A stretch of DNA of 64,000 nucleotides from Marasmius tenuissimus (lineage: Eukaryota; Basidiomycota; Agaricomycetes; Agaricales; Marasmiaceae). The stretch covers positions 3,736,626 to 3,800,625 of the forward strand of contig JAQOTA010000047.1 of the NCBI GenBank assembly GCA_029532415.1, read 5' to 3'. Below are positions 24,100-36,580 of the stretch, one piece after another; position 1 is the stretch's first letter; each line of letters starts with the position of its first letter. The notes under the pieces were generated by a model that made no database searches, was not told the DNA's origin, and saw nothing but the letters and a program-made list of their open reading frames with translations. The position numbers and the translations under genes are program-made.

Positions 24100-24104
24100 G
24101 TACT

Positions 24105-24998
24105 TGTTACGGATCGTGACTCTCATCATCCGTACACCCGAGTCCAAGTCCAATTTCCGAAGCATGTCATGATAAGATCTCAAGAAGTGATCATCTCAGT
24201 TGGGACCCAGTAGACCATTGCAAAGCGCCGACAAACACCCGCCTAGACCACACGTTGAGGTCACACGACCGTGGACAATGGTTTCCTGACTGACCAGTGC
24301 TCCTGGGGTCCCCAAATTACTCCAATACCAAGTGTATTCCCCCAGGGACCCATTAATTTCCGCATTTTCTCTCTTTCTGGCAATATTCATCCCTTGGGAC
24401 CCCAACTGCATCTTCATTTCCCATCCCCAAACACTCTTCAAGCAGTGCGCAGGCTATGAAGGAATGCTATTCAATTGAACAGCATTCCCGGGAAAGCAGA
24501 ACCCGAGACCCGGTAAGTCCAGGGATTCTCCACAATCCCTAGGACTTGCACGTAGGCTGTATATATATTGTAGGCAGTGCTAGTAGGTAGTAAAATAGTA
24601 TAAAAGGCCTGAGGTTTCTACCAAAACCTCAGCCTAGATATTCTTGTTGTTTCCCCTTAGCTTTTGTGTGTTTTAAGTCTCTGGAGTTGAGCCCTAGCTC
24701 CTCTTTCTCTCTCTCTGTGTTTTGCGAGTGTTTTAGTGTTTTCCCGAGCTCCCCGAAGCCTTAGTTTCGAGTCCCGAAGGACTCATTTGGATTTCCACAA
24801 GTTCTAGTAAGTGTTCTTTGAGTTACGTTATATTACTAGTTACTTTTACAGTAGCTACTAGTATCTACAGTGGTCTTGTAGTAAACATTTGCTGCCTCAG
24901 TCCCATTCCAGAGTTGTTGTGTTAGTTTTGTGTATCGCCGCGTAGGTCTTAAAATCGTACCTGTTACGTGCAGCGGTCTGCGTATACGGTCCGTAACA
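24105..24998 (+). repeat. 5' LTR of the chromovirus
   Basis: 894 bp, starting TGTTACGG and ending CCGTAACA. TATAAAA is at 24599-24605, so transcription is expected to start near 24630. It differs from the 3' LTR by one T in a run (near 24890). Confidence 0.95.
24599..24642 (+). promoter_or_regulatory. LTR promoter: TATA box and predicted transcript 5' end
   Basis: TATAAAA at 24599-24605. CAGCCTAGATATT at 24630-24642 lies 31 bases downstream, the usual spacing to a start site, and is exactly complementary to 25000-25012. The same box is at 36078-36084 in the 3' LTR. Confidence 0.7.
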
Positions 24999-24999
24999 T

Positions 25000-25012
25000 A
25001 ATATCTAGGCTG
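25000..25012 (+). other. primer-binding site of self-priming type
   Basis: AATATCTAGGCTG starts two bases after the 5' LTR. It is a perfect 13-nt complement of 24630-24642, the predicted first bases of the element's own RNA. There is no TGG-type match to a tRNA 3' end. This is the arrangement known for Tf1, where the RNA's 5' end folds back to prime reverse transcription. Confidence 0.75.
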
Positions 25013-25026
25013 TTGATTGAGCCATT

Positions 25027-28000
25027 ATGTCTGCTACGAGAACAAGAACACATACCAGTTCTTCTCGTGTCGAAAGAGAACATTCCCGTTCTCCGTCTCC
25101 TGAACGTTCAGCGTTTAGAAGTCCTTCATCTCGGAGGACTCAAAGTCCTAGTAACCACCCAGGTTTTAGAACACCTGGACGAAGGTTAGTAGATGATACC
25201 GAAGGAGAAAGGTTACCCGCACCATTCCCGGTGAATTCTTTTCGTCCTTCGGATCCCCGTGACCCACGGTCACCTCGTAGTTCCCCCCGCCCAACTCTCT
25301 CCTTTGGCCTCCCCGGATCTCCGCCATCATCACGTATCCCCTCAAGCCCGCCACTCCAAGATATCTTGAACCGACCTGAGACTCCCCCTCTAGTCTCAAG
25401 ATCAGAAGGTGAAGGTCAAGGATCACCGCCTGATGAAGTTCAAGAAGGTCAACAGCGAGTTATTCGAGTTCAGACTGAACCCGAAGAAACTTACCCGTCA
25501 CCTTCAACGACGGACACATTCACTTCGACTACTTCTGGGTCATCGTCACGCCAATCTAGACGAGAAAATATTGAGGAACCGCCAGTTGTATTACCTTCAA
25601 CTCCGACCCGACCTGGAGAAAGAATTACCCCGTTGTCCCCAACATCGGTTCAAGCAATGTCAGGCGGTTCTCGTAGAACTCTTGATAGGGAGAACGTACC
25701 TATCTCCCCCAGAACGGCTCCCTATCCAGAAGTTGGAGTTTACTTTCCTAGTCCAACTAGACCTAGAAGAAGAGATACACCGACAGTTAGTTCAAGAGTA
25801 CGCGAAGAGGGAGTGCTTGATGATTTGGAAAGACGTGTCGTCATGCTACTCGAAAGAATGAATTGTCCTCTACGAGGTTATTCGCTGAGAGCTTATCTCG
25901 ATATGTTTCAGCGATTTGTTGAGTCTGAAGTTAGGTTTTTACCGCCGTACGTCCGGGAATTCTTCGTAGCGAATCCTCGCAACTACGCAGACTTAGATAA
26001 TGCTGTCAGGTATGCTGGACACCCCATGGTACAGCGAGAGCTCAGACGACTTACCGGCACAGAGCCTCTGCAGGGTTTCAAAATTACAGTGGATTTGCCA
26101 CCACGAATTCGCTCTTTCAGCAGAGGTGCGAACGGAAGGTTAGAATATACTCTGTATCCACAGGGACAAGGAACGCACGAGCAGGTTATAGACACTATCG
26201 AAGAACGAGTGGAAGATTTCATGTTAGCTATGAATTGTCCCGTTAGAAGACAGGCTATGAATACCTACCTTGCCTTATTCCAATCGTTCTTGGATCTCCC
26301 AAATGATCATTTGCCGACGTATGCCCTCGAATACCTATCAAATAGTGCAAATAGAGTTGATCTCAATTTCTTCATTCACTATACACACAGACCCGAGATC
26401 AGGGATATATTGAGAGACTTACCGGCCTACGACGAAATTCAGGCAGCCGATGATAGCATATATAATATGCGCTCAAGATCACCGACCCCTGAACCAGTGG
26501 GTAATGCCGGAAATACTTGGGATGCCCACTACGACCGGATTCGTAGACGATATCTGTTAGGTCAAATTAACCGTTCAGAATATCTGGAAGAAATGAGAAA
26601 TTCAGCTATTAACTTCGATGACAGAACGGCATCCGAAAGGATCCGCTTACCCTTCCCCGAAGCTGAAGAGTTAGCAAACGGTGAGCATATACCTACTCGC
26701 CCCAATAACCCTGTCCTTCGCTCAACAACAACCGACTCGGAACCTAGCCCTGGCATCTTTGAGGGGAGTCCCCAACACTCGGAGTCAGTTCGACCGCCAA
26801 GCTCAGTGAGTGAAAGGCGCCGTTCAATTATTGAACGGCACAGAAACCCAAATTTACTGGGTTCCTATCAACAAGGGCCGAGTTTATCAAGCCCTCGCCG
26901 CTTTCGACCCTCTTCCCAATACCCTAATCCTATCGACTTGTCCGATTTCGATTCCAGCGATGAAGAATTCCCGATTAGGTCGACACCCCGGTCTGTTGCG
27001 AGAAACCGAGGTGTGAGGTTTGCAGCCACTCCCGAATACCACGAGGTAACGCCAGCCGCCAGTTCATCACGGCGAGCTGGTGAGGTACGAGCTGCAGGGT
27101 ACCGACATACCCCGTTCAGAAGGGATGATCCCTCATCATCATCGGAGGATGAAGGTGAAGTAGAACGTAAGAAAAAGGGTAAAGAAAGAGATAAAAACCA
27201 CGCACCTAATACCCTGAAGACCCCTCCTAACGATCATTCTCCTAGAACAGGTCGTATCGAATTTGTTGAAGGAGATAGCGAGGGAGAGGTACGCACGATA
27301 TTGGCAGTTGATGATGAGGGTGAGAGAGGAAGCCCATCGGCCGAAGTTGCTCAGAAGCCGAGGTCAAAGCGTGAGAGTGAGTTGCCTGCGCTGGAATCTA
27401 ACTTAGGCGCTCCGGATATCCCGCCCCGCCAAAGCGCACAGCCACCTGGGCCCTCTTCTTCCGCAACCACCACCATCCCTGGACCTCTCTCTCTACATTG
27501 TGACCCTCCTCCCCATCTACCCTCTGAACCTTCAACTTCAAGGCAAAATACTCAAGATTCTCGGAGGATCAGAGGCGATGACGGTGACGAGAGTGAAGAA
27601 AGAATGGGAAAGTGGGAAGAGAAGGGAAAATGGAAGGCAGGTACGCCCTCAACACCTCCCTCCTCTACACCACTTACAGAATCGAGCTGGAGGGACCGCT
27701 CTCACAGTTCAGCTCGAGGTGGCGCCCCTCAAAGGGCATTTCTCCAAGCTCGAAACTTTAGACAGGCCATGGAGGCGGCTAACGAATCGGTTACCCAGGC
27801 AGAACCAATCCCCCCAGCTTCATTCTTTCCTCCAACCCCTGCATCGTCAATGTCGAGAGAAGATCCCAGCAATGACAATGCTGCAAGCCAAGGGGAAACG
27901 ACTCGAAGAATAGGCCGTCGAAGATCAGGCCATTCCCTCTCTTCTCGGGCTACTGGTTCATGCCACGGGGATCCGAATCGTTTGAGAAACGAAGTGACGA

Positions 28001-29745
28001 ACGGCCCATCGTTTACAGGAAATGAAATGGCGAACGGCCTTTCAAACCCAAATGAAGGTGTGGCGAACGGCCCACCTGAATCCTCGCCGCCAGGATCGTC
28101 CCCACCAGCATCTTCAAGAGACGATGATGGTTCACCGAACGAACAAGATCGCCAAGGAGTGGTAGTGCAGCGAAATGGTGGGTTATCTCCCTCCAGTTCG
28201 TCGGGAGATTCTATTATAGGCAAGTCTGACACAAATTCAACCAGTCCGGACTCGATTATGGACACCTCAAGTTCGAATTCAACATCATATTATTCGTTTT
28301 CGTCGTCTAACGGTGACGAACACCGGCCTTCAAATTTTTCGAACGCGCAACCTCCCGACAACTCCTCAAATACGCGTTATCTCGCTATAGAACCTCCCCC
28401 GCCTCCTCCTCCGCCTCCTCCACCTAACTGGTCAAGCGGTTACGGTTATGGCTATGGTATGGGACCGCCGCCGCCTCCTCCTCCTCCTCCCCCACCAAAT
28501 CATTTTGGTTATGGTTTTCCTCCCCCTCCCCCGATTCCTCCTTTCAGATACGGACCTCCCGGACCACCAGGACCGCCAGGACCACCAGGCCCTCAGGGAC
28601 CTACTGGACCCTCAGGTAGAGGTTCGTCACCGACTACGTTTAATCGAGAGGAGAACTCACGTTTGGTTAGGGAAGCGGTAAACCGTGAATCCAAGTTGGA
28701 GATCAAGAAACCACGAGAATTCGACGGCTCTAAACGAGAAGAGTTCCGCGGATTCATTAGTGAGTGTATTCGTATGTTCATTGCGAAACCTCACATTTAC
28801 GTTTCTGATCAGGATCGTGTTCAATTCGCATCGTCATATCTGTCGGGTGCAGCTGGACGGACGTTCCAGAATTGGGCCGAACGAGAGTTGAATGAAGGAG
28901 AAATTCATGCGGCGTTACATACCTGGCGAGACTTCGTAGATGAAATGAGACGTTTGTTCGGCGTTTACGACGAACAACTTCATGCCCAGGCATCGCTGGA
29001 TAAGGTTCTCCAACGATTTGGAGAAACTTTCGCTGAGTTTTTGGTCAGGTTTGAAGATGCTGCGCTTCTGACGCGGTACAATGAGTACGCGCTGAAGTGG
29101 CGTTTGATCGCCCAGATTAGACGTGATTTGCGAGATCGCATCACGTATGTGGGAGGTATTCCTGAGCACTACCGAGAAGTAGTCGAAAAACTCCTCGAAA
29201 TCGACGGGGCTCGACAAGCTTTTATGGACATCGGTCTGACGAACAGACCTCAGGGTTCGTATCCGTTAAGTTCTCAGAACCGGATAGCATCTACTTCAGC
29301 TAACCCGGACACTACAGCGCTGGTGCCAGCCCGAGGAAATCGTTCGGGACCACGCGTGAGTAAACCACCGATACCAGCTCAGGCCAGAGCAGCTCAAGAA
29401 TCGCCACCAGAGCGGCCTATAATGCGCATCTCTCGACAAGAACGAGAGAGACGAATGGCCAACGGCCTGTGCTTCAGGTGCGGTGAGCGGGGACACTACG
29501 GAAGAAATTGTACTAACGATCCCGTAGATAGTGTCCCGACGACAACTGCTTCGGGACGCGTAGGCTTTGCCTATGAGGACCTACCCACGGAGGCCGATGT
29601 CCTGACATACGAATTCGACGAACAAGGAGATGCTCATCTAGTCGAAAGCTATAACGGGTCCGAGTCGGGAAACGAAGATGCAGATGTGGACTACGTGTCG
29701 GGAAACGAGCAGGGGACTCAGAACCTCGAGAAGGGAGAGAAATGA
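25027..29745 (+). CDS. gag: Gag polyprotein with a very long N-terminal extension
   Basis: 1572 residues, several times the usual length for a Ty3 Gag. Residues 1-260 are Ser/Pro/Arg-rich and probably disordered. Two related blocks follow (about 267-345 and 393-466), each starting near M-N-C-P with F-Q-x-F about 15 residues on, so an internal duplication is visible. A second disordered stretch leads to poly-Pro runs (about 1123-1175) and a G-P-P collagen-like run (about 1176-1197). The capsid domain (about 1205-1400) contains the F-x-G and W-x-x-F motifs of retrotransposon Gag. A CCHC zinc knuckle (C1482, C1485, H1490, C1495) follows. The stop overlaps the pol start. The ATG at 25027 lies 28 bases after the LTR and is the first in frame. 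Confidence 0.93.
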   Translation: MSATRTRTHTSSSRVEREHSRSPSPERSAFRSPSSRRTQSPSNHPGFRTPGRRLVDDTEGERLPAPFPVNSFRPSDPRDPRSPRSSPRPTLSFGLPGSPPSSRIPSSPPLQDILNRPETPPLVSRSEGEGQGSPPDEVQEGQQRVIRVQTEPEETYPSPSTTDTFTSTTSGSSSRQSRRENIEEPPVVLPSTPTRPGERITPLSPTSVQAMSGGSRRTLDRENVPISPRTAPYPEVGVYFPSPTRPRRRDTPTVSSRVREEGVLDDLERRVVMLLERMNCPLRGYSLRAYLDMFQRFVESEVRFLPPYVREFFVANPRNYADLDNAVRYAGHPMVQRELRRLTGTEPLQGFKITVDLPPRIRSFSRGANGRLEYTLYPQGQGTHEQVIDTIEERVEDFMLAMNCPVRRQAMNTYLALFQSFLDLPNDHLPTYALEYLSNSANRVDLNFFIHYTHRPEIRDILRDLPAYDEIQAADDSIYNMRSRSPTPEPVGNAGNTWDAHYDRIRRRYLLGQINRSEYLEEMRNSAINFDDRTASERIRLPFPEAEELANGEHIPTRPNNPVLRSTTTDSEPSPGIFEGSPQHSESVRPPSSVSERRRSIIERHRNPNLLGSYQQGPSLSSPRRFRPSSQYPNPIDLSDFDSSDEEFPIRSTPRSVARNRGVRFAATPEYHEVTPAASSSRRAGEVRAAGYRHTPFRRDDPSSSSEDEGEVERKKKGKERDKNHAPNTLKTPPNDHSPRTGRIEFVEGDSEGEVRTILAVDDEGERGSPSAEVAQKPRSKRESELPALESNLGAPDIPPRQSAQPPGPSSSATTTIPGPLSLHCDPPPHLPSEPSTSRQNTQDSRRIRGDDGDESEERMGKWEEKGKWKAGTPSTPPSSTPLTESSWRDRSHSSARGGAPQRAFLQARNFRQAMEAANESVTQAEPIPPASFFPPTPASSMSREDPSNDNAASQGETTRRIGRRRSGHSLSSRATGSCHGDPNRLRNEVTNGPSFTGNEMANGLSNPNEGVANGPPESSPPGSSPPASSRDDDGSPNEQDRQGVVVQRNGGLSPSSSSGDSIIGKSDTNSTSPDSIMDTSSSNSTSYYSFSSSNGDEHRPSNFSNAQPPDNSSNTRYLAIEPPPPPPPPPPPNWSSGYGYGYGMGPPPPPPPPPPPNHFGYGFPPPPPIPPFRYGPPGPPGPPGPPGPQGPTGPSGRGSSPTTFNREENSRLVREAVNRESKLEIKKPREFDGSKREEFRGFISECIRMFIAKPHIYVSDQDRVQFASSYLSGAAGRTFQNWAERELNEGEIHAALHTWRDFVDEMRRLFGVYDEQLHAQASLDKVLQRFGETFAEFLVRFEDAALLTRYNEYALKWRLIAQIRRDLRDRITYVGGIPEHYREVVEKLLEIDGARQAFMDIGLTNRPQGSYPLSSQNRIASTSANPDTTALVPARGNRSGPRVSKPPIPAQARAAQESPPERPIMRISRQERERRMANGLCFRCGERGHYGRNCTNDPVDSVPTTTASGRVGFAYEDLPTEADVLTYEFDEQGDAHLVESYNGSESGNEDADVDYVSGNEQGTQNLEKGEK

Positions 29746-32700
29746 GTCCCCAAAATCGTCCACCCCCCTCAAATTCCTCAAATTCTAAAACGAAAACCGG
29801 TGCTGAACGGGTATCTTTACGCTCAGTGCTCGTTTCAGATCCTCATAGCCCAACAGAAGGCTACGATCGAGTATCCATTACGTCGAACTCGAACGAAGCT
29901 TTCATTATCCAATCTCATCTCTTTTCCCTCGACAATTCTCCCCTCCCCTCGCTCATCGACTGTGGTGCTTCAAGACTCTTCATCGACAATGGCGAAGCAT
30001 CCCGGTACCCAAGTTTTATCAAAAAGCTTGCAAGACCAGTCGTACTCACTCTTTTTGACGGACAAGATACCTCCGGAGGGCTGATCACACACGCATTGGG
30101 TGCAGATCTTGTATTCGCTGACGGTACTGTTCACAAAAATGAACAGTTATTGATCACAAAGCTACACCCTTCGGCGAAGATTGTTCTGGGTCTCCCTTGG
30201 CTTCGCAAGCACAACCCTCCAATCGACTGGACGGAACTCACAGTATCCCTCAATGGAAAGGAACGTCTTGCAGCAACTCTGAGTCGAAACATTACCTTCT
30301 CTATACCTGCAGAATCACTCGCACGAGCTCCTATAGTTCCGGAGATTCAGTTTGTAGGCGCCAGAAGCTTTCTGGGTCTTATAGACGAGGGCTACGAGGT
30401 ATTCTTACTGGGAGTAAGACCCTATTCGGAGGGACCAAATGTGGTGGTTTTAGCTGCATCGGATATCGGCGCTACCGAGATACTAAACCCCTTAATGGAT
30501 CCCGAGGAACGATCTAAGTTCGAGAGAATCGTTCCGTCACCTTATCATTCTTTCGAGAAGGTGTTTTCTTCGCAAGAGGCAAAGACTCTTCCACCACACC
30601 GGTCTTCGGACATGTGTATTGACACGATCAATGATGAATATCCCCCGATTGGTAGGGTTTACAACATGTCTGAACGAGAGCTTCAAGCATTGAAGACACA
30701 CATAGACGACCTTCTCGAGAAAGGTTTCATTCGTCCCTCGAACTCACCAATCGGAGCGCCCGTCCTGTTTGCAAAAAAGAAGGATGGTACGTTAAGGTTA
30801 TGTATCGATTACCGTGCGCTAAATCGACTAACCAAGCGTAATAATTACCCCATCCCCTTGATAGGTAACCTTATAGATCGATTACGCAAATCCACGATCT
30901 ACACTAAGCTCGATCTTCGAGCAGGCTACCATAACATTCGTGTTGCTGACGGACACGAATGGAAGACGGCGTTCAGGACGAGGTATGGCGCTTTTGAGTA
31001 TTTGGTTATGCCGTTTGGACTCACCAATGCGCCGTCGGTATTCCAACAGTTCATGAATGAAATATTCCATGACATGGCGGATCTTAACGTGATAGTATAC
31101 TTGGACGATATATTGATCTATTCAGAATCTGAGGATCAACACATCGAACATGTACGTGAGGTCCTTCAGCGTTTGGAGAAGTTTGACTTACACCTTAAGC
31201 CAGAGAAGTGCGAGTTCCACACGACGTCTGTTGAATATCTCGGAGTGATTATCTCACCATCTGGGATCAAGATGGACCCACAAAAGGTTCAAGTTATCCA
31301 AGAGTGGCCGGTGCCTACCAACGTTAAGGAGGTACAATCATTTTTGGGTTTTGCAAACTTCTATCGACGCTTTATTGACAACTACTCAGGTATAGTCAAA
31401 CCTTTGACATCATTAACGTCGAAGAAGAAGACTTGGGAGTGGTCGTCTGAGTGTCAGAGCGTCTTTGAGCTGTTGAAACAGGCCTTTGTTGAAGCACCAA
31501 TTCTCCGGCATTTCAACCCATCTCTCCCAATAGTCGTTGAGACCGACTCTTCCGACTACGCAATTGCTTCGATAATTTCTCAGCCACATCCGGACTCTCA
31601 AGATCTCCACCCCGTGGCATTCTATGCACGTAGTATGGTTCCCGCTGAACTAAACTACGACATCTATGATAAAGAGCTCTTGGCTATAGTAGAGTCCTTT
31701 AAACAATGGCGTGCGTATTTGGAAGGGTCCCGATTTCCTGTACAAGTTTTTACTGACCATAACAATTTACAGTTCTTTACGACGACTAAGCAATTAAGTC
31801 GTCGTCAAGCTAGGTGGTCTGAATTCTTATCAGGATTCGACTTTTCTATAAACTATCGCCCGGGGCGACTAGGACTCAAGCCAGACGCTTTAACTAGAAG
31901 ACCAGATGTCTACCCCAGAAAAACTCTTCGGGATGCGACGAATGTGATCAACAACAAGATTTTGATCAAGCCAGAACAGTTAGTAGCCGTACTTGCTGCG
32001 AACTTCATCTTGAACGAAGATCTGTTGATTAGGACAATCCGTGAAGCCCCCGAGGACGGCCACTGGAGACACGCGAGAAGTTGGATGCAAGATCACTCTG
32101 ATGGCCCATATGTCTTCGAGAATGGATTACTTCTACGTAACGGGGTTGTCTACGTACCGGACTACAAGGACCTCCGACTTGAGGTCATGAAAACTCATCA
32201 TGATCACAAGTTGAGAGGTCATCCAGGAGTTCACTCAACTGTGAACCTGATCCTTCGAGGATATTACTGGCCACGAATACGGAAGGATGTGAAAGGGTAC
32301 GTTCTGTCTTGTCAGTCATGCCAACGAGCTAAGTCTGCTCGACGCAGACCTTACGGACTACTTAAACCCCTCCCGATCGCCAAACGCCCGTGGATCTCCA
32401 TATCCGTTGATCACATAGTTCAACTTCCGGACTCTGAAGGATTTGATGCGATCATGGTGGTTGTGTGTAGGTTGACAAAACAAGCTATATTCGTTGCTTG
32501 TAACACAACTGACATGGCTGCAGATCTAGCGCAACAATTTGTTCGCCATGTGTTTGCAAAGCATGGACTCCCAGCAGACATCGTATCAGACAGAGGTACG
32601 ACGTTTGTTTCAAATTTCTGGCAGTCACTTTGTGACATTTTGGAAGTTAGAACGAATCTCTCGACTGCTTATCATCCCCAGAGTGACGGACAAACTGAGA

Positions 32701-33719
32701 GGACTAACCAGTCCCTTGAACAGTATTTACGATTATTCGTGAGTTACGATCAAGACGACTGGGAACAATATCTGCCGCTAGCTGAGTTCACGTATAATAA
32801 TACGACACACAGCGCGATAGGTATGTCCCCATTCTTTGCAAACAAGGGTTACCATCCCCGATTGACTCTGTCTTTCAAGGACGTCCCGAGTCATGCAGCC
32901 TTACAAGTCGCCGAGAACTTAGAGGATATGCATCAGTACTTGAAGGAACAGATTGAATTAGCGAATAAAAAGGCTCAGACCTACGCTAACAATCGTCGGG
33001 AACGAATCCCCGACGAGTTTCAAGTGGGTTCAAAAGTGTGGCTAAACACATTGAACCTCAAAACTCGCCGGCCGACAAAGAAGTTAGATTCCAAGAAAGT
33101 TGGTCCCTATGAAATTTTACAGAAAGTATCCACTCACGCTTATCGATTAAAGCTCCCAGGAACTCTCCAAGGAATTCACGACGTCTTTCACGCAAGTCTA
33201 CTGTCCCGAAGCCATCCTGATCCCTTCCCTCAACGAAAGCAACCCCCTCCGCCTCCGATTGAAATTGAAGAAGGGATTGAAGAATACGAAGTTGAAGCCG
33301 TATTAAATTCGAAGGGACGAGGGTCGCATATCCGATATCATATTCGGTGGAAGGATTATGACCCCGACGACGATACCTGGGAGCCCCTCGAAAATCTGGA
33401 AGGAGCAATTCATATGGTACGGGCTTTTCATAAACGTCATCCTCGAAAACCCGCACCGACCAAGGAAGAACTAGATTCTTTAGAATTCAGACGTGAGAAG
33501 ATTCTCCAGGAACGCGGAGAACGTCCCGAAGATCTCAGGGAACCCGATAGTAAAACTCCGGGATCATCTGATGATACGACAAGTCATACCAAGACGTACT
33601 CCCCGGTTACTATACCTTCTCCGAGACAAACAACTTCGTCCGAATATCGACAGAATGTGAATCTTGAAACTCAAGTGGAACCGTCTCAGCTACGGCGATC
33701 CCGCCGTCTACAAAATTAA
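29742..33719 (+). CDS. pol: Pol polyprotein with chromodomain
   Basis: 1325 residues. Protease active site D-C-G-A at D73 (Asp-Cys-Gly in place of the common Asp-Ser/Thr-Gly). Reverse transcriptase with L-C-I-D-Y-R, V-M-P-F-G-L and Y-L-D-D (453-456). RNase H with E-T-D-S-S (near 600) and F-T-D-H-N-N. Integrase HHCC finger (about 822-860) and D890, D950, E986 with the exact D-D-35-E spacing. A G-P-Y-E-I-L module follows, then a C-terminal chromodomain (about 1180-1235) with Y-x-V-E-A and W-K-D-Y-D-P-D-D-D-T-W-E-P. All catalytic residues are present. Known of the family: the chromodomain directs integration to modified histones. The start ATG overlaps the gag stop (ATGA), 1 base back in frame. 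Confidence 0.95.
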   Translation: MSPQNRPPPSNSSNSKTKTGAERVSLRSVLVSDPHSPTEGYDRVSITSNSNEAFIIQSHLFSLDNSPLPSLIDCGASRLFIDNGEASRYPSFIKKLARPVVLTLFDGQDTSGGLITHALGADLVFADGTVHKNEQLLITKLHPSAKIVLGLPWLRKHNPPIDWTELTVSLNGKERLAATLSRNITFSIPAESLARAPIVPEIQFVGARSFLGLIDEGYEVFLLGVRPYSEGPNVVVLAASDIGATEILNPLMDPEERSKFERIVPSPYHSFEKVFSSQEAKTLPPHRSSDMCIDTINDEYPPIGRVYNMSERELQALKTHIDDLLEKGFIRPSNSPIGAPVLFAKKKDGTLRLCIDYRALNRLTKRNNYPIPLIGNLIDRLRKSTIYTKLDLRAGYHNIRVADGHEWKTAFRTRYGAFEYLVMPFGLTNAPSVFQQFMNEIFHDMADLNVIVYLDDILIYSESEDQHIEHVREVLQRLEKFDLHLKPEKCEFHTTSVEYLGVIISPSGIKMDPQKVQVIQEWPVPTNVKEVQSFLGFANFYRRFIDNYSGIVKPLTSLTSKKKTWEWSSECQSVFELLKQAFVEAPILRHFNPSLPIVVETDSSDYAIASIISQPHPDSQDLHPVAFYARSMVPAELNYDIYDKELLAIVESFKQWRAYLEGSRFPVQVFTDHNNLQFFTTTKQLSRRQARWSEFLSGFDFSINYRPGRLGLKPDALTRRPDVYPRKTLRDATNVINNKILIKPEQLVAVLAANFILNEDLLIRTIREAPEDGHWRHARSWMQDHSDGPYVFENGLLLRNGVVYVPDYKDLRLEVMKTHHDHKLRGHPGVHSTVNLILRGYYWPRIRKDVKGYVLSCQSCQRAKSARRRPYGLLKPLPIAKRPWISISVDHIVQLPDSEGFDAIMVVVCRLTKQAIFVACNTTDMAADLAQQFVRHVFAKHGLPADIVSDRGTTFVSNFWQSLCDILEVRTNLSTAYHPQSDGQTERTNQSLEQYLRLFVSYDQDDWEQYLPLAEFTYNNTTHSAIGMSPFFANKGYHPRLTLSFKDVPSHAALQVAENLEDMHQYLKEQIELANKKAQTYANNRRERIPDEFQVGSKVWLNTLNLKTRRPTKKLDSKKVGPYEILQKVSTHAYRLKLPGTLQGIHDVFHASLLSRSHPDPFPQRKQPPPPPIEIEEGIEEYEVEAVLNSKGRGSHIRYHIRWKDYDPDDDTWEPLENLEGAIHMVRAFHKRHPRKPAPTKEELDSLEFRREKILQERGERPEDLREPDSKTPGSSDDTTSHTKTYSPVTIPSPRQTTSSEYRQNVNLETQVEPSQLRRSRRLQN

Positions 33720-33871: not shown

Positions 33872-35166
33872 CTAGTCATCTGAAGGGGACACTTGGGACC
33901 ACTCGGCAGAGCCGTTGGTGGCAGAAGTCGAAGCAGAGGATGAGGGACGGGCCAAGAGGGATTTGACGGGAGCTACGTTCACGCGGAATGGGCGACGATC
34001 AGTACGAGGAGAGGTAAAGCGTCTGGACAAACGGTCAGTAGAATAAAATTGATTGTATAAAGATGTGCTTACTTCAAAAGCCCCAGCACATCTACGATGT
34101 AACGAGGACGGCTGCCCTCTGCAGCCTTGGCAATCTCTCGTTCAATGGTATTCTCATCCATTGGACCAGTAATTTCCAAGCTCGTAATCTCAACCCTGTC
34201 AACGAAAGTAACGACCTCTTCGATGATTTTGACGACTCGCTGAACGCATCCAACAACCTCGTCATATTGGGATTGAGCGCTAAGGCCAGATACGTCGGGA
34301 ATACCAGAAATTCCGTTGAGACGGGAAAGCATGATGGAGAGTTCCCAGTGCATGCGACGATGCTTACTCTGGAGCTCGGGGAAGGCGTGAATGGCATTTC
34401 CTCGCCGATATTTGAAACCCTCACGAGCACAGAAAACAAGGCGTTTCTTTGTCGTAGTAAGGACTTTCTCCATCTCGGCTAGTGCGAAATGCTTATGAGG
34501 AAAAGGATTGATAAGAAAATATATTAGACGACACACCTCTGTCACCGTCAACTCTCTCGAACTCGCTTCGGGCAGAGGCCAGCTCTTCTCTGACACCCAC
34601 CAACTCCGTTTGAAGTCTCTGGAGCATCTCTTGAAGAGAACCGACCTGCGCTTTGAGAGCACCGGCCTCCTTCTTGTAATATTCCTGAAGGCTACGGAGC
34701 AGAATAAGCAAAACACTAATGAAAACAGAGAAGGATTTATTCTTACCGACTCAAGACAGTGTTGCGGGCAAGAGAATGACGGAGAGTAGTTGTGGCGATC
34801 TCATGGGTACGTTCCAATTCTTGGAGACGACTAGTAACAAAAGAAATTATCAAGGCTGAGCAAGTCAAGGAAAGGGATGTACGTACCCGTTGCGAGTACG
34901 AAGACTAGCTTGGAGGGTGTCAATAACCGATGTCAGAGACGAGAGGAATCCGTCGAACGACAAGTGTTGTCCGAACTGTGCACGAAGGATCTTGATGGCG
35001 TGTTCCCGAACACTAGATAAGTACATCAGACATGGTTACGAGTGAACAAAAAATATATTGTTGCTCACTGTGCACTGGCGTTAGGGTCTTCAACGTCAAA
35101 GTCGGGATTGGTGGCGACGGGGGTCAAGGTGACGATCGGGATAGCGGGAGATTCGTTCAAGGACAT
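33872..35166 (-). CDS. antisense six-exon gene inside the retrotransposon (339 aa, coiled coil)
   Basis: Exons on the minus strand: 35166-35069, 35012-34887, 34830-34747, 34691-34537, 34478-34073 and 34022-33872. The introns are 50-58 bases, all GT..AG. The sum is 1020 nt, exactly 340 codons including TAG. The N-terminus is MSLNESPAIPIV. Exons 2-4 encode a long heptad-like helix rich in L, E, Q and R (about residues 75-165), probably a coiled coil. A conserved-looking helical part with K-K-R-L-V-F-C-A-R-E-G-F follows, and the C-terminus is Ser-rich, ending V-S-P-S-D-D. No signal peptide or membrane helix, so it is not envelope-like. I recognise no domain. The gene is convergent with pol (153 bp between stops) and has its own TATA box. 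Its introns are antisense to the genomic RNA and would therefore survive retrotransposition. Confidence 0.85.
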
Positions 35167-35261
35167 CTCGAAGGAAGGAAAAAGCAATGGAGAAGCAGCG
35201 AAGGGCAGATAGCAAAGCAGAGGACTGCTGATAGCGAAATATAGGTCAAAAGTGGGCATGC

Positions 35262-35268
35262 TTTTATA
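35262..35268 (-). promoter_or_regulatory. TATA box of the antisense gene
   Basis: TATAAAA on the minus strand, 96 bases upstream of the ATG at 35166. A start site near 35235 would give a 5' leader of about 70 bases. The region 35270-35570 between this box and the polypurine tract shows no frame. Confidence 0.55.
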
Positions 35269-35570: not shown

Positions 35571-35583
35571 GAGGAGGGAGTGA
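35571..35583 (+). other. polypurine tract of the chromovirus
   Basis: GAGGAGGGAGTGA lies directly before the 3' LTR, where the plus-strand primer forms in Ty3-type elements. Confidence 0.75.
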
Positions 35584-36478
35584 TGTTACGGATCGTGACT
35601 CTCATCATCCGTACACCCGAGTCCAAGTCCAATTTCCGAAGCATGTCATGATAAGATCTCAAGAAGTGATCATCTCAGTTGGGACCCAGTAGACCATTGC
35701 AAAGCGCCGACAAACACCCGCCTAGACCACACGTTGAGGTCACACGACCGTGGACAATGGTTTCCTGACTGACCAGTGCTCCTGGGGTCCCCAAATTACT
35801 CCAATACCAAGTGTATTCCCCCAGGGACCCATTAATTTCCGCATTTTCTCTCTTTCTGGCAATATTCATCCCTTGGGACCCCAACTGCATCTTCATTTCC
35901 CATCCCCAAACACTCTTCAAGCAGTGCGCAGGCTATGAAGGAATGCTATTCAATTGAACAGCATTCCCGGGAAAGCAGAACCCGAGACCCGGTAAGTCCA
36001 GGGATTCTCCACAATCCCTAGGACTTGCACGTAGGCTGTATATATATTGTAGGCAGTGCTAGTAGGTAGTAAAATAGTATAAAAGGCCTGAGGTTTCTAC
36101 CAAAACCTCAGCCTAGATATTCTTGTTGTTTCCCCTTAGCTTTTGTGTGTTTTAAGTCTCTGGAGTTGAGCCCTAGCTCCTCTTTCTCTCTCTCTGTGTT
36201 TTGCGAGTGTTTTAGTGTTTTCCCGAGCTCCCCGAAGCCTTAGTTTCGAGTCCCGAAGGACTCATTTGGATTTCCACAAGTTCTAGTAAGTGTTCTTTGA
36301 GTTACGTTATATTACTAGTTACTTTTACAGTAGCTACTAGTATCTACAGTGGTCTTGTAGTAAACATTTTGCTGCCTCAGTCCCATTCCAGAGTTGTTGT
36401 GTTAGTTTTGTGTATCGCCGCGTAGGTCTTAAAATCGTACCTGTTACGTGCAGCGGTCTGCGTATACGGTCCGTAACA
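35584..36478 (+). repeat. 3' LTR of the chromovirus
   Basis: 895 bp, identical to the 5' LTR apart from one added T (near 36370). It is followed by the target copy GTACT at 36479-36483. Confidence 0.95.
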
Positions 36479-36580
36479 GTACTCTTTCTCTTGTCCAATG
36501 GGTAGATTGGGAGGCAGCACATCTCACTGACTACTGGAATATCTATTGTGTTGAGATTTAGACACTATACATACAGAGAT

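Follow-up and report, generated by a model that had tools for sequence, protein, structure and literature searches.

A predicted multi-intron gene kept on the antisense strand of Ty3 chromoviruses in Marasmius tenuissimus

Antisense genes of mobile elements and the Marasmius locus

Genes antisense to gag and pol are a described feature of long terminal repeat (LTR) retrotransposons. In plants, antisense additional open reading frames (ORFs) known as aORF-3R have been reported from Grande (gene23), RIRE2, Retand and PvRetro13 (PMC7264820, PMC11963269), while Boty-like elements of the fungus Botrytis cinerea carry the antisense extra gene brtn (Zhao et al. 2011, via PMC7264820, PMC8365987 and PMC4227169). 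Here we analyze a predicted gene of this kind in a 64,000-nt stretch of the Marasmius tenuissimus genome (contig JAQOTA010000047.1, hereafter the window), where it lies antisense within a complete Ty3/gypsy chromovirus. We consider it likely that this chromovirus carries an intron-bearing antisense gene with its own promoter and a spliced mRNA, the accessory product of which would serve the element itself. With somewhat less assurance, we favor the broader proposal that the LTR lineage keeps a multi-intron gene permanently, such that the introns stay while the protein falls below 30% identity, and that the antisense strand acts as a shelter in which introns may even be gained or lost in transit.

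Like the plant aORF-3Rs, which are presumed to be regulatory, the Marasmius gene is located antisense between pol and the 3′ LTR and has no clear relatives among known proteins; we find such a coding frame, kept in related copies, in the window and in two further complete elements, referred to as C7 and C43. Grande gene23 has its own promoter upstream, and a TATA promoter is predicted for the window gene. The word "intron" occurs zero times in PMC7264820 and PMC11963269. Retand belongs by description to a non-chromovirus lineage, and its TRP28 domain (Transposase_28, PF04195) does not appear among the Pfam matches (E up to 0.1) listed for the C43 protein and for the deposited proteins P0004 and P0002. 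The original prediction, made from the letters of the window, had pointed to antisense extra genes in plant Ty3 elements; this parallel holds for Grande and others, but such genes are not confined to plants, as brtn of Boty illustrates (PMC7264820). Boty is similar in that it, too, is a chromodomain-bearing gag-pol element of a fungus and carries an antisense extra gene (PMC4227169).

More distant parallels exist for a protein gene antisense in a reverse-transcribed genome, and for introns in mobile genes. The antisense-strand genes HBZ and APH-2 of human T-cell leukemia viruses (HTLV) give rise to a spliced antisense transcript, and HBZ is a leucine-zipper protein whose targets are transcription factors (PMC3185765). 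However, the HBZ transcript starts inside the 3′ LTR, whereas the TATA box of the window gene lies 316 nt outside the LTR and is followed by a gene with five predicted introns. We claim no sequence relation. No bZIP family is among the Pfam matches listed for the window protein (25 of 30) or in the lists of C43, P0004 and P0002, the nearest approach being a weak homeobox-associated leucine zipper match of the C43 protein (19.3 bits versus a cut-off of 28.1). Penelope elements of bdelloid rotifers move intron-bearing genes, for which the authors consider an antisense template compatible with intron retention, and they set Penelope apart from every other type of retrotransposon in that it disperses intron-containing genes (PMC3846280). 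The common ground is a gene moved by a retroelement that keeps its introns; unlike the window element, Penelope has no LTR architecture, and what it moves is a host gene between terminal repeats rather than a conserved gene of the element. Nuclear group I introns contain homing endonuclease genes, sense or antisense, with spliceosomal introns (PMC9548176), and thus offer a mobile element's own gene, antisense in some cases, in interrupted form. They differ in being mobile rDNA introns that home via DNA breaks, without full-length RNA copying. Judging by titles, abstract starts and selected passages, none of the papers listed in our literature searches, which left most subscription papers out of reach, describes an LTR element bearing a multi-intron antisense gene.

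On the minus strand of the gap between pol and the 3′ LTR, we predict a gene of six exons that join to 1020 nt, that is, 339 codons plus stop, with introns of 56, 56, 55, 58 and 50 nt, each bounded by GT..AG. Exon 1 (98 nt; 35069..35166) begins with the ATG at 35166 and is followed by exons 2 (126 nt; 34887..35012), 3 (84 nt; 34747..34830), 4 (155 nt; 34537..34691), 5 (406 nt; 34073..34478), which is the portion that retrieves the most distant relatives, and 6 (151 nt including the stop; 33872..34022). The intervening introns 1 to 5 occupy 35013..35068 (phase 2), 34831..34886 (phase 2), 34692..34746 (phase 2), 34479..34536 (phase 1) and 34023..34072 (phase 2), the last reading GTAAGC..CAG. A predicted promoter is marked by the TATA box TATAAAAG on the same strand (35261..35268), whose start at 35268 is 102 nt upstream of the ATG. 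The same motif is present in all three complete elements, preceding the ATG by 100 nt in C7 and by 73 nt in C43. These data reproduce the original model of six exons and GT..AG introns of 50-58 nt, and bear out its claim of an own TATA box.

How strongly does the sequence of the gap itself favor this model? The longest spliced ORF in its 1864 nt measures 387 aa antisense and 139 aa sense, and none of 100 dinucleotide shuffles of the gap gave 339 aa or more (maximum, 199). Because the optimum is 387 aa, gene finding alone cannot settle the model; it is the comparison that settles the 339-aa version, which agrees with the C7 copy and with deposited predictions. One deposited protein, P0001, starts 31 codons farther upstream, at an ATG only 2 nt past TATAAAAG; this ATG precedes the expected transcription start, and the extension is absent from P0002, P0003 and P0004 (P0005 is partial). 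Two other candidates were discarded. The 139-aa sense ORF (34063-34482) hits a stop within the aligned C7 stretch (41.8% over 134 aa), and a host gene interrupted by the element is ruled out, since LTRs, target-site duplication, gag and pol surround the antisense gene.

Conservation of the gene in related elements

When the genome was searched at the DNA level with the antisense gene, one other copy turned up, 70% identical, at C7. This copy, too, is antisense and occupies the space from pol to the 3′ LTR of a complete element, the LTRs of which are identical over 890 nt and whose gag and pol are open over 4851 and 3990 nt, respectively. A single exon set, with introns of 56, 63, 55, 65 and 53 nt, reproduces the deposited C7 protein P0004 (339 aa). 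Exon lengths equal those of the window in six of six cases and the five introns sit at the same places; yet while the exons are 64-83% identical with zero gaps, the introns are 40-51% identical and contain gaps.

The differences between the two genes are distributed 67/40/178 over the three codon positions, yielding, by the Nei-Gojobori method, a dN of 0.170, a dS of 1.678 and a ratio of 0.10. For gag, dN/dS is 0.20, and for pol dS is saturated so that a ratio cannot be given. The two proteins share 257 identical positions (stop codon counted); when the same number and kind of changes were scattered at random, none of 2000 trials retained more than 194. By these measures, the predicted antisense protein is under purifying selection between the window and C7. 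The original prediction had made itself dependent on conservation of the antisense frame in related copies, and in C7 the frame is indeed conserved.

The third element came from a protein search of the genome with P0002, a relative from Marasmius sp. AFHP31, which gave 18 rows, among them a weak match at C43 opposite in strand to open pol and gag. The C43 element is complete, with LTRs that are 99.2% identical (3 mismatches, 3 gaps), AGCAG on each flank, a gag frame of 1603 residues from the first ATG, and an open pol frame. Its predicted antisense gene has seven exons, six GT-AG introns and a product of 406 aa, which scores 53 bits against a profile of four Marasmius proteins (best of 1000 shuffles, 7.9). 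The window introns have phases 2,2,2,1,2, those of C43 phases 2,2,2,2,1,2. Window introns 2, 3 and 4 share alignment columns with C43 introns 2, 3 and 5, and the three elements agree in an exon 2 of 126 nt, lending support to the correspondence of intron 1 as well. Exon 4 of the window (155 nt) is represented in C43 by 42 + 113 nt, making the fourth C43 intron (C43:412614-412666) the extra one. All five window introns thus have a C43 counterpart by order and phase. In the remnant at C63 (see below), DNA similarity is continuous across the extra-intron site, suggesting that this copy has the extra intron, too.

With respect to divergence, pol identity is 1055/1318 between window and C7, 912/1277 between window and C43, and 890/1283 between C7 and C43 (69-80%). 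The corresponding values for the antisense protein are 256/339, 88/304 (about 29%) and 87/321, with window and C43 sharing 83/325 in a five-way alignment. Given that its identity with C43 is far below that of pol, the antisense protein has evolved much more rapidly than pol along the longer branch. The overall pattern of exons under selection, freely changing intron sequence and kept intron positions is consistent with introns sheltered on the antisense strand. Comparison across C7 and C43 makes the antisense gene credible. We regard the predicted gene as a long-standing accessory gene of this lineage of elements.

A further genome search with the C43 protein (21 rows), combined with that using P0002, brings the antisense gene to seven loci, all such counts being lower bounds. 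These are the window, C7, C43, C63, C10 (where two pieces count as one locus) and a pair in C69, and seven of seven adjoin element sequence; neither search found a copy away from element sequence. Three of the seven have frames open throughout, and these are the ones in the complete elements. C10 is a rearranged element with a broken gag and a pol cut at residue 722, in which one antisense-gene piece follows pol and the other is inside gag; a weakly matching piece of the pol end is also found within gag (C10:5487658-5496528). C63 is a remnant consisting of an LTR and a broken antisense gene. In both C69 copies, ~2.1 kb of other sequence interrupts the gene, and a C43-type LTR is present at a distance of 2.3 and 1.8 kb, respectively, from the first exon, its side and strand being those expected; no pol was seen in the flanks examined, one side of one copy having been read 5 kb farther. 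The two similar C69 remnants (C69:1095457-1098668 and C69:1211302-1214462) are 116 kb apart and likely reflect a segmental duplication.

Searching protein databases, we obtained five relatives at E ≤ 0.001 among 6090 candidates, and a profile search at E ≤ 1 (7997 candidates sharing most words scored) returned the same five. All are from Marasmius: two from this genome and three from Marasmius sp. AFHP31, a strain called M. infestans in PMC11053350. The M. tenuissimus protein PM082_015008 contains the window product at 100% identity, and those from AFHP31 show 79-85% identity with the window product over the covered parts. Neither the single-sequence nor the profile search revealed a relative outside Marasmius, and no Botrytis protein was returned. 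In a protein search with pol, none of the best 120 of 4389 matches was labelled Marasmius, many being unnamed. Viral contigs gave 30 pattern matches, none of which was confirmed.

The predicted product and competing explanations

The product appears coiled-coil-like, as originally proposed. Its structure models are helical, and weak Pfam matches of the antisense proteins include many coiled-coil families. A PDB profile search led no further, its single row being a Rho-associated kinase 1 chain at E 0.057. By a simple count, the run richest in hydrophobic heptad positions is residues 112-153 in the window, C7 and P0002 proteins, and the best run in C43 is at 212. The window, C7 and P0002 proteins also share a short basic patch at residue 299, though this does not prove nuclear location.

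In the genomic RNA, the antisense introns read CT..AC, ends which the spliceosome is not expected to use; therefore, this RNA would carry the introns into cDNA. We propose that the internal TATA promoter drives an antisense mRNA, which is then spliced; in the sense genomic RNA the introns read backwards and would be retained. Each round of reverse transcription would then transmit the introns, and every new copy would again express a spliced antisense mRNA. The claim of the original prediction that antisense introns survive copying fits the five introns common to C7 exactly and to C43 by order and phase, with the splicing itself being a prediction. The helical, coiled-coil-like product may act as an accessory protein of the element rather than represent a hitch-hiking host gene; it would most probably control replication through contact with a protein of the element or of the host, a role modelled on proposals for plant antisense proteins and on the HTLV HBZ reports. 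That the protein would serve the element is suggested by its being tied to elements whose gag-pol is open, and by its degeneration in remnants.

Several observations weigh against a spliced accessory gene kept by the element. Expression and splicing are predicted from sequence, and a YTRAY branch-point-like motif near the 3′ splice site is seen in three of the five introns (1, 2 and 5). The deposited AFHP31 models derive from ab initio predictors and protein evidence, the term "RNA-seq" being absent from PMC11053350. The C43 model was built by hand from a three-frame translation, guided by the window gene, and its comparison is homology-based rather than a rate test; relative to C43, intron 1 is displaced by 10 columns in a poorly aligned stretch, and intron 5 by 3 columns. 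As the comparison covers three complete elements, intact sister elements lacking the gene may exist. No listed Pfam match of the antisense proteins exceeds the curated cut-off (25 of 30 listed for the window; full list for C43, P0004 and P0002), and the structure models are poor (mean pLDDT 56.4 and 52.5), rendering the role of the protein a guess.

The alternative that survives best, although we consider it unlikely, is a host gene of cellular origin captured antisense with its introns by transduction. The ordinary fungal gene structure, with short GT-AG introns and a TATA box, would be explained by such an event. On the other hand, no free-standing copy was found in the genome in searches that give lower bounds, nor did the database hold a relative in other taxa. 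Recent capture is excluded by the same position in three elements with pol 69-80% identical, leaving as a possible variant an ancient capture whose source gene later disappeared or diverged. No homologous stand-alone chromosomal gene was found; the three AFHP31 relatives have not been placed inside or outside elements. The label "cellular-type" in the original prediction consequently fits the architecture alone, not the origin: seven of seven loci lie beside element sequence, there is no stand-alone copy, and no non-Marasmius relative appeared in the two database searches.

Slightly less probable still is that the antisense strand produces a regulatory transcript, acting through double-stranded RNA or transcriptional interference, with the frame being incidental. 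Antisense noncoding transcripts do occur in other elements (PMC7264820), but a noncoding function would not account for the dominance of third-position changes, the dN/dS of 0.10, and exons that remain indel-free while introns diverge freely; moreover, C43 retains a homologous protein with matching introns. A regulatory role of the RNA in addition to the protein is possible.

Strong purifying selection could also mean that the host has co-opted the protein and that the elements are mere carriers, which we deem very improbable. Unbroken copies in this genome reside in elements with open gag and pol, whereas the C10, C63 and C69 copies, in rearranged elements or remnants, have stops or insertions, as loss of use outside the element predicts. 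Finally, an env-like gene on the wrong strand is hardly credible despite the location between pol and the 3′ LTR, given the antisense orientation and the lack of any hydrophobic stretch of transmembrane strength, the top 19-residue hydropathy mean being 1.47 in the window and 1.04-1.45 in three relatives.

The carrier element and implications

The element around the gene proved to be a complete chromovirus, in agreement with the original prediction of an intact one. Its 5′ LTR (894 nt; 24105..24998) and 3′ LTR (895 nt; 35584..36478), both on the plus strand, differ in one 1-nt indel, have the termini TGTTACGG..CCGTAACA (TG..CA), and are flanked by the 5-bp target-site duplication GTACT (24100..24104 and 36479..36483). 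Between them, also on the plus strand, lie an open gag (1572 aa; 25027..29745) with a long N-terminal part and a CCHC knuckle, an open pol (1325 aa; 29742..33719) with reverse transcriptase, RNase H, integrase and chromodomain, and a purine-rich tract (GAGGAGGGAGTGA; 35571..35583) preceding the 3′ LTR. RVT_1, RNase H, Integrase_H2C2 and Chromo pass the Pfam cut-offs in this order, as in chromoviruses, within 29742-33716; the integrase core rve is marginally under (32.1 versus 32.6), and no protease family is among the Pfam matches listed (25 of 30). At C7 (C7:1058344-1070855), TGTAG flanks the element on both sides if the LTR end is CCGTAAAA rather than the CCGTAACA of the window. Probable solo LTRs related to that of the window are found at C69:537470, C31:413753, C6:181365, C3:4369893 and C19:2002517, with gag and pol not found in the stretches examined.

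The primer-binding stretch (25000..25012, plus strand) is complementary to 13 nt of the LTR (24630-24642), a signal for self-priming. In window, C7 and C43, respectively, the 13, 13 and 12 nt after the 5′ LTR are complementary to an LTR stretch 31-33 nt below the LTR TATA box, and differences among the three are compensated on both sides. Comparable self-priming is used by Tf1. At the gag/pol overlap, which involves a -1 frame (window 29730-29750), the window reads ATGA, and C7 (near 1064108) and C43 (near 417662) read CTGA; lacking an ATG there, their pol would depend on a frameshift or a non-ATG start. The N-terminal ~1200 residues of the window Gag (25027-28600), ahead of the Gag domain, contain polyproline and GPPGPP runs. 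This part is retained relative to C7 yet evolves faster, with a dN/dS of 0.28 as compared to 0.05 for the C-terminal part.

Textbooks explain the lack of introns in retro-copied genes by the reverse transcription of spliced RNA. The introns described here seem to have been passed down together with an LTR element over a deep divergence; the element would then own a spliced gene, and the rule that retrotransposed means intronless becomes testable on a defined case. A basidiomycete also joins the hosts of antisense accessory genes, Botrytis being an ascomycete. Antisense accessory genes are already known as a kind; a multi-intron one retained by diverged LTR elements, as predicted here, was not among the papers listed in our searches. 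The extra C43 intron represents an intron difference arising inside a retroelement lineage, for which gain and loss are both possible. If splicing is confirmed, the Marasmius elements would provide a counter-example to the stated uniqueness of Penelope among retrotransposons (PMC3846280).
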